NCBI RefSeq assembly: GCF_017377735.1
Contig: NZ_JAFVMH010000002.1
Coordinates: 310,001-374,000 of the forward strand
Direction: 5' to 3'
Length of the DNA stretch: 64,000 bases
Source of the DNA: Acetobacter garciniae
Lineage (GTDB): Bacteria > Pseudomonadota > Alphaproteobacteria > Acetobacterales > Acetobacteraceae
The notes below the pieces were generated by a model. The model made no database searches, was not told the DNA's origin, and saw only the letters and a program-made list of their open reading frames with translations. Below, piece by piece: positions 59,614-64,000 of the stretch (position 1 is its first letter; every line of letters starts with the position of its first letter). The position numbers were made by a program, and so were the translations under genes.

Positions 59614-61716
59614 TCAGGCGTCGCCGAACGCCAGCGGGCAGGGGCCGGGCCGGCCGAGGAAATAGCCCTGGGCCTCGGTGCATTTCATGGCGCGCACGGC
59701 ATCAAGCTGGATCTGGGATTCAACGCCTTCGACAATGACGGTCTTGGCGCGAATACTTGCAATACCTACAATGGACTGGATAATTTCTTTTGCGGTCGGG
59801 TCGGGCAGGGCCTGGACGAAACTGCGGTCGATCTTGATCTTATCGAAAGGCAGTTTCCACAAATAACTCAGGGATGAATAGCCGGTTCCGAAATCATCTA
59901 TACTGATATTGCAGCCGATTTCGCGAATATCGTTCAGGATGGAATTTTTATATTCATATTCATCCATCAAAACGCTTTCTGTAATCTCCAGATCCAGCCT
60001 GGAAGGTTCCAGTCCCGTTTCCTCCAGGATTGTCCGGATAACGTCGGGGAACTGGCGGCGCTTGAGTTGCAGGGGGGACACATTGACCGATACGGTCACG
60101 GTCTTGGGCCATGTCCGGGCTTCGTAACAGGCCATGCGGAGCACGCGTTCGCCAAACTGGTGGATCAGGCCCGTATCTTCGACCAGGCGGATAAAGATAT
60201 CGGGCGGGATCGTGCCGCGTTCGGCATGGTGCCAGCGCGCCAGGGCTTCGAAAGAGCGGATCTTGTTGGTGGTAAGGCAATAGATGGGCTGGTAATGCAG
60301 GCTCAGCCCTTCGCCATCGACCATCTTGTGCAGCGCGGCGACAAGTTCGGCCCGTTCGCTCATCTCGCGGCTCAGGGCGTTGTCGAACAGCTTGTACTGG
60401 CAGCGGCCAAGGGCCTTGGCCTTGTAGAGCGCCATATCCGCATAGCGCAGCAAGGTCGCACTGTCATTGGCCTGGTCGGGGAAATGGGCCGCACCTATAC
60501 TGGCCCCCACAACGACTTCATTATCCTGAACCGTGTAAGGCGCACTCAGCAGCTTGATCAGTTCCCCCAGGCGGGGTTCGATCGGGGCGGTGGCGGAGCA
60601 GTAAGGCCAGATCATCGCGAATTCGTCGCCGCCCAGGCGCGCGACAAAATCGTCCTGGCGGCAGCAGGCCTGAAGCCTCGACGCAGCCTTTCGCAGCAAT
60701 TCGTCCCCGCCGCTGTGGCCATGCACGTCATTGATGGATTTGAAGTGGTCCAGATCGATATAGAGCAGGAAAAATTCGAATTCCTGCTGGTCGGCCATGG
60801 CATTCAGCTTGGAACTGAAGTAATTTCTGTTGGGCAGGCCGGTCAGGTTATCGTAATGGGCGAGTTGTTCTATGCTGCGCTGGGCTTCGCGATATTCCGT
60901 GATGTCATCCGCAACACAGAGTTCCCACCGCCTGTTGCCATCGTCATCGTCGATCAGCAGGTTTCTTTTTGAAAGAATACGCTCGATTCCCTGGCGGTCT
61001 GTCAGCGTCTGTTCCGATTTGCCGATGCGGGCATGCCACGTGGTGTCGTCCGCCTGGCTGACCGACACATCGGGCAGCGTGTCGTCCAGCGCATTCAGGA
61101 TGAAGGATTGGGAGGACAGTCCCACTTCCTCCGCCGCCCGGTTATGGATGATCGTATCCCCGGTATTGACGTCGCGCACCTGGATGGCGGTGGGAATATT
61201 ATCGATGATGGTGGAAATGAATAACTTGTCGCGCAGGATGATCTTGTTGGCCTGCCGTAATTCACCCGCGGTCTGGCGCAGTTCCTTGATCGTGTCGACT
61301 GCCTGCGCATGCAGCGCCTTGGTGAGGTTGAAGGTTGAGCCAACCCCGTAATATTCCTGGTTTTTTGTAATAATGAACCCGGTCAACTGGTTCAGCAGAT
61401 GGGTGTTGAGAATGGTATCCACAAAGTCGGACACGAATTCATCCGCATCGACCAGAATGGGGTTGCGGTCCATCAGCAGCGAAATGGAGCGGTTGGCGAA
61501 TATTTCATAACCAAACCGGTGCCCCACCCGTAACAGAAAGGTCCAGCGGCCGATAATGCCGACAGGGCGGTTATGCGCATCGACAACAGGAATTTCGGAA
61601 AGCTCCGTGTTTTCCTGGAACAGGGCAAAAATATTCGCACCCGTTTCATTGGATGAAACGGACGGCACGTTAACGGCAATATCTCTCATCCGTCGTTGTG
61701 CTATATGGTCGCGCAT
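59614..61716 (-). CDS. CBS-PAS-GGDEF-EAL c-di-GMP turnover protein
   Basis: 700-residue cytosolic protein with both c-di-GMP domains. The N-terminus (1-125) looks like paired CBS domains (MRDIAVNVPSVSSNETGANI; SEIPVVDAHNRPVGIIGRW). A helical segment and a PAS-like domain (about 175-280) follow. The GGDEF domain is intact (LGGDEFAMIW, residues 362-366) with an upstream inhibitory RxxD site (RQDD). The EAL domain keeps E490-A-L and DLEITES, SIDDFGTGYSSL, KIDRSFVQAL and IVEGVES, so both synthesis and hydrolysis could be active. ATG 61716 follows GAGG; an upstream TTG (61737) is possible. Such composite proteins set cellulose synthesis in Komagataeibacter. The CBS pair suggests adenine-nucleotide sensing. 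Confidence 0.93.
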   Translation of the reverse strand: MRDHIAQRRMRDIAVNVPSVSSNETGANIFALFQENTELSEIPVVDAHNRPVGIIGRWTFLLRVGHRFGYEIFANRSISLLMDRNPILVDADEFVSDFVDTILNTHLLNQLTGFIITKNQEYYGVGSTFNLTKALHAQAVDTIKELRQTAGELRQANKIILRDKLFISTIIDNIPTAIQVRDVNTGDTIIHNRAAEEVGLSSQSFILNALDDTLPDVSVSQADDTTWHARIGKSEQTLTDRQGIERILSKRNLLIDDDDGNRRWELCVADDITEYREAQRSIEQLAHYDNLTGLPNRNYFSSKLNAMADQQEFEFFLLYIDLDHFKSINDVHGHSGGDELLRKAASRLQACCRQDDFVARLGGDEFAMIWPYCSATAPIEPRLGELIKLLSAPYTVQDNEVVVGASIGAAHFPDQANDSATLLRYADMALYKAKALGRCQYKLFDNALSREMSERAELVAALHKMVDGEGLSLHYQPIYCLTTNKIRSFEALARWHHAERGTIPPDIFIRLVEDTGLIHQFGERVLRMACYEARTWPKTVTVSVNVSPLQLKRRQFPDVIRTILEETGLEPSRLDLEITESVLMDEYEYKNSILNDIREIGCNISIDDFGTGYSSLSYLWKLPFDKIKIDRSFVQALPDPTAKEIIQSIVGIASIRAKTVIVEGVESQIQLDAVRAMKCTEAQGYFLGRPGPCPLAFGDA

Positions 61717-61737
61717 GGCTGCCTCAGACGAAAACAA

Positions 61738-63096: not shown

Positions 63097-64000
63097 ATGG
63101 ATAAAAAGTTTATTTATTTAAGCCCGAAGGAGCAATGGAAAGATATTATCACGCAGGCTCCCGCACGGCAGAGAGCGTATGTCAGGGGGGTGATCCAGGA
63201 CAACGCTGTCGGGTGCATAGATCTTTTTGTTAAAGCGATTTTTCAATATGAAAGTGCGACGGAGTTTCTCAGGAAAGAAAATCTACTGAGAAAAATGCGG
63301 AAAAACCTGTATTTTTATATCAAGGCAGTCTTTTCCGCCTCCCCCGAAGATATCGAACATCTGTGCCTGCTGCAAAAACGCATGGGTAGCGCTTATGCGC
63401 GGCTGGAAATACCGGCCCATCTCATTGCCTACGGCTTTTTTATTATCAAACGGCAAATTACATCCCTGTTCCTGGCGGACAAGTCCGATCAGTTCGATAC
63501 GTCATCCGTGATCATTTACATTGGTTCGATGATGGATTTCTCGTTCAAATTCGTCATGCGCGCCTATGATTCCCGGTTTCGCAAGGCGGTGGAAAGCAAG
63601 GAAGTCCTGCGCATGGTGTCGTTGGGACAGGATCTGGCCTTCGAGCGGGAAACACAGGTCCGGACGTTCTTTGCATGGAGCACGCAAACCCTGACCTTGC
63701 TGTGCGAAAACAGGGCACAGGAAATTCAACTGGTCGAGGATTCCGATTTCGGCTTGTGGTTCACCCATAAAGGGCGAAACATGTTCAAGGGAACGCGGGA
63801 ATTCGATACGATCCAGAAGGAAATAGAAAAAATCGACAGCGATATCGCCCTGGTCCAGAACACGGGCGAAGTTCCGAAGAAGTTTTCGGAAAAAGTCTAT
63901 CGCTCGATAAGGAAAATCAATTTCCTGGCCGAAAACAGCTTTCACCAGATAGAAAAAGTCGAGAGCGGGAAAGACCCGCTGACAAAAGTCCTGAACAGGA
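63097..64000 (+). CDS. Globin-coupled diguanylate cyclase, DosC-like, with altered heme pocket (3' end outside window)
   Basis: First 301 residues of a cyclase with the DosC (YddV) layout: globin-like domain (about 1-160), the DosC-type middle domain with FGLWFTHKG at 218-226, and the opening of a GGDEF domain (DPLTKVLNR, 293-301). The catalytic GGDEF motif is beyond the edge. In oxygen-sensing relatives the heme iron is held by a proximal His in a VHARIGIP-type segment; here the segment is GSAYARLEIPAHL with Tyr100. The distal Tyr position appears to be Phe44 (CIDLFVKA). So heme binding may be lost or changed. The gene uses rare codons (TTA, ATA, AGA, CTA) and is AT-richer than its neighbours. 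SD AGGG is close to the ATG. Confidence 0.85.
   Translation, partial: MDKKFIYLSPKEQWKDIITQAPARQRAYVRGVIQDNAVGCIDLFVKAIFQYESATEFLRKENLLRKMRKNLYFYIKAVFSASPEDIEHLCLLQKRMGSAYARLEIPAHLIAYGFFIIKRQITSLFLADKSDQFDTSSVIIYIGSMMDFSFKFVMRAYDSRFRKAVESKEVLRMVSLGQDLAFERETQVRTFFAWSTQTLTLLCENRAQEIQLVEDSDFGLWFTHKGRNMFKGTREFDTIQKEIEKIDSDIALVQNTGEVPKKFSEKVYRSIRKINFLAENSFHQIEKVESGKDPLTKVLNR

Follow-up and report, generated by a model that had tools for sequence, protein, structure and literature searches.

A DosC-type diguanylate cyclase of Acetobacter with a putatively heme-free globin input domain

The solved structures closest to the protein described here are those of BpeGReg and E. coli DosC (YddV, EcGReg) for its globin part, and that of DosC for its middle part. 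In the available portion of PMC5549716, Tyr43 and His98 of DosC are identified as heme-site residues, and a His-Lys pair in the pi-helix of the middle domain is given as required for function in both DosC and BpeGReg; a Trp touching the heme edge is described in a figure legend of PMC7033309. For PccGCS, the accessible text of PMC12805357 describes a variant in which Gly replaces the His and imidazole ligates the iron, so that heme may in principle be kept even where the His is gone, and also reports that removing the link between the His and the F-helix weakens coupling. RsbR, which carries Ala at F8, is presented in the part of PMC4476040 at hand as a His-less, non-heme globin sensor. This precedent (PMC4976288, PMC4476040, each available in part) shows that signaling by a globin sensor can survive the loss of heme, and the cellular input of non-heme globin sensors such as RsbR is called an open question in the portion of PMC4976288 available. 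The terms "heme-free" and "non-heme" are absent from a review of sensing in c-di-GMP proteins (PMC8846402), and in the literature searched, outside which most subscription journals lie, we met no heme-free globin joined to an intact diguanylate cyclase. Judged by title or the opening of the abstract, none of the papers found there deals with a DosC, or another globin-coupled cyclase, that lacks the His.

Domain layout and residues of the heme site

The window, by which we mean the whole 64,000-nucleotide stretch analysed (positions 310001-374000 of contig C12, in a genome of 3.8 Mb and 43 contigs), ends within a gene for a DosC-type protein of 467 residues, whose open reading frame starts at the ATG at 63097 and of which residues 1-301 are encoded at 63097..64000; the full gene (C12 373097-374500) runs 500 bases past the window end. 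An earlier note had described a DosC-like globin cyclase. The protein is of DosC type and has three parts, with these Pfam scores: a globin domain at residues 1-165 (63097..63591), where Protoglobin scores 19.4 bits, under its cut-off of 25; a DosC_2nd middle domain (PF21118) at residues 183-282 (63643..63942; 53.1 bits, cut-off 31); and a GGDEF domain starting at 63973..64000 and covering residues 293-447 in the full gene (154 bits, cut-off 23.8). The middle domain is labelled CZB-like by Pfam, and the zinc ligands that a zinc-sensing middle domain would need are presumably absent. Alignment with DosC places the functionally important pi-helix pair (PMC5549716) at His224-Lys225 (63766..63771). 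At the output end, 16 of 17 GGDEF positions compared with DosC are identical, the remaining one being a change of Asp to Glu (GGEEF), and both the I-site RxxD and the A-site GGEEF are intact.

The closest relatives of the window protein, about 52% identical over residues 1-301, are its orthologues in A. peroxydans, A. suratthaniensis and A. papayae, in which Protoglobin is above the cut-off (26.5-28.1 bits vs 25); we refer to these four proteins as the Y clade. Relatives were matched in 20 of 49 genomes of the genus, the window's own included, and in 7 of 200 family genomes, or 26 of 397 with a profile at E 1e-10 (own genome counted in both). A scan of named genomes returned 96 stretches encoding relatives, of which 80 loci were kept; as the pattern FGLW..HK was used in it, the conservation of His224-Lys225 in those 80 rows is partly by construction.

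In a 111-row alignment, from which L034 (without the globin part) and L039 (a globin fragment) were left out, seven rows, all from the four Y-clade species, carry Val or Cys, Tyr and Tyr at the distal, heme-edge and proximal places, respectively. The other 104 have Trp and His in every case and the distal Tyr in 103, one row being incomplete there. Tyr, Trp, His is also the reading in 21 further rows and in another six, and L039, examined separately, has these three residues as well. Outside the Y clade, therefore, His and Trp are found in 131 of 131 readable DosC-type rows and the distal Tyr in 130 (one incomplete there), a count that includes repeats, 125 of the 131 rows being 103 distinct sequences, and several rows showing one genome under two ids (L017 = L046; L016 = L048 and L018 = L047 over the last 440 residues). 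Class-wide, a search with the middle domain matched 5 of 385 genomes; the window's is among the five, and the other four matches keep all three heme residues. The window genome has four other Protoglobin matches, all with a proximal His, three of which are HemAT-like receptors by reading of the sequence and the fourth a PAS-GAF-GGDEF-globin-EAL protein. In L006 (C23 243425-246763), with this unusual domain order, the protoglobin lies in mid-chain and keeps its proximal His.

The earlier note had put Tyr100 (63394..63396) in the place of the proximal His, and the 111-row alignment and the structural match to DosC 4zva agree, with Tyr100, rather than a conserved His, at the place of His98. The register on which that note relied held at Tyr100 and was off by one at the distal site: Phe44 (63226..63228), which it took for the replacement of the distal Tyr, aligns with the conserved Phe42 of DosC, and that reading can be ruled out as the Phe42 equivalent is present in 96% of 51 non-redundant His-bearing rows. 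It is Val45 (63229..63231), Cys in the three orthologues, that stands at the place of the O2-binding Tyr43. A third heme residue is changed beyond the two noted earlier, Tyr74 (63316..63318) being found at the place of Trp72, the heme-edge residue by the partly available PMC7033309; like the window protein, the three orthologues have Tyr at both the heme-edge and the proximal places. The proposal that heme is not ligated in the usual way is hence supported by the sequence, and extends to a conserved clade, in spite of the misassigned distal residue. Leu is found at the place of Met69 in the Y clade, and likewise in many His-bearing relatives.

An AF2 model of the window protein superimposes 149 residues on DosC 4zva, residues 8-156 onto 6-154 of the chain, with a constant offset of 2, and the offset is again 2 in a second model, for which just the four Y-clade rows were used. 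An alignment error, or chance, as the cause of the missing heme residues was ruled out on the basis of this constancy in two models. Both models resemble heme globins, so that the cavity may still admit heme. As regards helices C and D, which RsbR lacks, one of the models has a helix at 52-58, helix letters being left unassigned here, and the other model shows a break in it.

Conservation and selection in the Y clade

With the 51 non-redundant His-bearing rows (85% cut) as reference and conservation set at 90% or more, 73 columns are conserved: the globin has 16 of them, the middle domain 14 and the GGDEF domain 43. Exactly three globin columns are at 100% in these rows, namely Tyr43, Trp72 and His98, and all three are lost in all four Y-clade species. 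Only 4 of the 73 columns are lost in all four, the fourth being V61 (replaced by Leu or Ile); five of the remaining globin columns are partly changed and seven unchanged, and all 57 columns of the middle and GGDEF domains are unchanged. The chance of finding the three heme columns among four drawn at random from 73 is about 6 in 100,000, as a guide only, the columns not being independent. Among the four proteins, the F-helix block Y100-P106 together with H108 is invariant, and positions 74 and 100 are identical as well. The predicted globin fold, the pi-helix and the active and inhibitory sites of the cyclase have all been kept in this lineage. Residue 222 (63760-63762), by the pi-helix, is Phe in every Y-clade protein; the 18 near His-bearing relatives all have Leu or Met, and the corresponding residue of E. 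coli DosC is also Phe.

Across the three orthologue pairs, dN/dS of the Y-form globin is 0.046, 0.046 and 0.029, against 0.079, 0.085 and 0.068 for the His-bearing paralogues of the same three species and 0.070-0.170 for three pairs of the His-bearing sister clade; the GGDEF domain of the Y form gives 0.048, 0.050 and 0.058 in the same pairs. Synonymous distances for the pairs are 0.64-0.99, and the low values cover the three orthologues, comparisons with the window gene being saturated. Values this low imply that the globin domain is in use in those three species. The middle domain evolves faster in the Y form (0.094, 0.068 and 0.082) than in the His paralogues (0.026, 0.025 and 0.024), a hint that the signal path has been altered to some extent. 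A decaying gene, or sequencing error, was ruled out for the clade, as the changes at 74 and 100 occur in three other species, with frames intact and dN/dS low.

Phylogeny and genomic surroundings

In the main tree, left unrooted and built from 51 of the 111 rows with the three heme columns removed, the Y clade is supported at 100/99, and its sister is the His-bearing group of A. lovaniensis and kin (99/92). The enclosing clade holds 24 rows, the other 20 of which all have His, and one His/Tyr change is needed on the tree; that the direction was from His to Tyr rests, the tree being unrooted, on this nesting within a His-bearing clade. Quick trees of 51 rows, from the GGDEF domain only and from the middle domain only, also give one change each, with the four-species clade starred (95) in the latter and unstarred in the former. 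The Val and Cys at the distal place may be separate changes.

All four genomes have the Y-form gene at one and the same locus, flanked on either side by genes in common, and a horizontal import of the Y form is for that reason unsupported. The shared downstream genes, judged by eye, we take to be those of a LysR-type regulator and oxidase subunits. An HD-GYP gene adjoins the Y-form gene in 4 of 4 genomes (turned round in the window genome) and follows the sister-clade gene in 7 of 7 loci (L049-L055); the flanks fetched for the His paralogues L056, L060 and L061 gave no HD-GYP match. Such His-bearing paralogues are located elsewhere in the genomes of A. peroxydans, A. suratthaniensis and A. papayae, and searches with Protoglobin and with relatives found no DosC-type His paralogue in the window's genome. 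Six DosC-type genes of both clades (the window gene, L046, L047, L048, L052 and L061) have 49-53% GC in surroundings that are richer (loci 57-60%, window 63%), and low GC, being found in both clades, is therefore no peculiarity of the Y form. A promoter scan was uninformative, with 5 promoter-like sites vs 4.0 expected in shuffles.

Upstream of the dosC-like gene, the window encodes a CBS-GGDEF-EAL protein of 707 aa (59614-61737, minus strand), so that three c-di-GMP genes are clustered here, counting the HD-GYP gene downstream; in A. peroxydans the upstream gene encodes a TonB receptor instead. In the HD-GYP neighbour of A. peroxydans (L046:7571-8215) the HHExxDGxGYP motif reads HHEHWCGTGYP, Cys taking the place of the Asp that the other nine aligned HD-GYP neighbours keep.

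What the globin may sense, and how it compares with known systems

Taken together, these data make it probable, on sequence grounds, that the protein is a globin-coupled cyclase derived from the DosC type, in which the globin has turned into a heme-free, or at the least a non-His, non-O2, input domain. As for the further step, that it is a natural heme-free globin-coupled diguanylate cyclase with its gas pocket remade as a receptor for a different ligand, we would give it an even chance. The protein probably senses something other than O2. It would not bind O2 through a His-ligated heme, and its globin would still act as an allosteric switch, passing a conformational signal via the middle domain to the GGDEF dimer; the input could be a protein partner or else a small ligand, hydrophobic or metabolic, in the cavity that once took heme, and the phosphodiesterase of the adjacent HD-GYP gene would counterbalance the c-di-GMP produced. 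A retained switch with a changed input appears to be the most economical reading. Against it stand the likeness of both models to heme globins, the retained Phe44, a Leu at the Met69 place as in many His-bearing relatives, the Protoglobin scores above the cut-off in the three orthologues, the imidazole-ligated variant of PccGCS, the faster evolution of the middle domain, and the restriction of the low dN/dS values to the three orthologues.

The main rival to a heme-free domain, in our judgement an unlikely one, is that the phenolate of Tyr100 ligates heme, making the protein a ferric sensor of heme itself, of redox state or of an anion, and not of O2. Precedents for Tyr-ligated heme are the catalases, HasA and the Isd proteins, and ferric heme is retained by hemoglobin and myoglobin when the His is changed to Tyr. 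The structural match to DosC suits such a role, as does a Tyr that occupies precisely the proximal position in all four species, within the invariant stretch; Tyr ligation does not, however, require the loss of the heme-edge Trp and the distal Tyr, yet both are gone, and no paper on a proximal Tyr in globins was found by title in the literature searched. Since the heme-edge Trp and the O2-binding Tyr have been lost besides the His, we infer that a non-heme globin is to be favoured over a Tyr-ligated one.

It is more doubtful still that the globin serves as a structural dimerisation module only, leaving the cyclase constitutive and limited by its I-site. Intact cyclase and I-site residues, the missing heme trio, and a middle domain less constrained than in the His paralogues speak for such a module; the lower dN/dS of the globin relative to the GGDEF domain across the three orthologue pairs, however, and the identity of positions 74 and 100 and of the F-helix block in the four proteins, speak against it. 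Least probable, and very improbable in our estimate, is an ordinary O2 sensor with His-ligated heme, the ligand coming from another residue such as His108. This is the sole His common to the four Y-clade globin domains; it lies, however, eight residues beyond the proximal position, where helix G begins, and L027, with a normal proximal His, has a His there too.

If the favoured heme-free reading is true, the pocket of an O2 sensor would have been repurposed, and the enzyme and most of the path downstream would have stayed as they were, in a group where three of the four known species retain a heme-type paralogue. Close His-bearing relatives (among them, for three of the four species, a His paralogue) and an output enzyme that can be assayed in vitro make it possible to ask what replaces O2, and whether the path from globin to cyclase works without heme. 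Our results are also a warning that not every DosC-type protein should be annotated as an oxygen sensor.

Compared with DosC-type heme sensors, the protein shares the predicted globin fold, the middle domain with the His-Lys of the pi-helix, and intact A- and I-sites, and differs from the DosC/BpeGReg type in having Val45, Tyr74 and Tyr100 where Tyr43, Trp72 and His98 are found. Because the proximal His, distal Tyr and heme-edge Trp that define the heme-based globin-coupled sensor family are all missing, we do not file it there. The sister protein of A. lovaniensis, okinawensis, fabarum, syzygii and lambici, 42-43% identical over residues 1-301 and likewise followed by an HD-GYP gene, does keep the three heme residues. 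RsbR of the Bacillus stressosome resembles the window protein in its globin fold without a proximal His; it differs, however, in its STAS output, where GGDEF is found here, and in the residue that replaces the His; RsbR lacks helices C and D. MabR of Mycobacterium, according to the accessible part of PMC11617747, has an N-terminal non-heme globin and a GGDEF-fold domain in one chain, as here, but cyclase activity is considered unlikely for its GGDEF-like domain, which is accompanied by a DNA-binding part, whereas the cyclase motifs of the window protein are intact. Heme-less globins are thus already known on STAS domains and beside a GGDEF-like domain, and a putatively heme-less one on an intact cyclase, as the sequences point to here, would be new in the literature searched.
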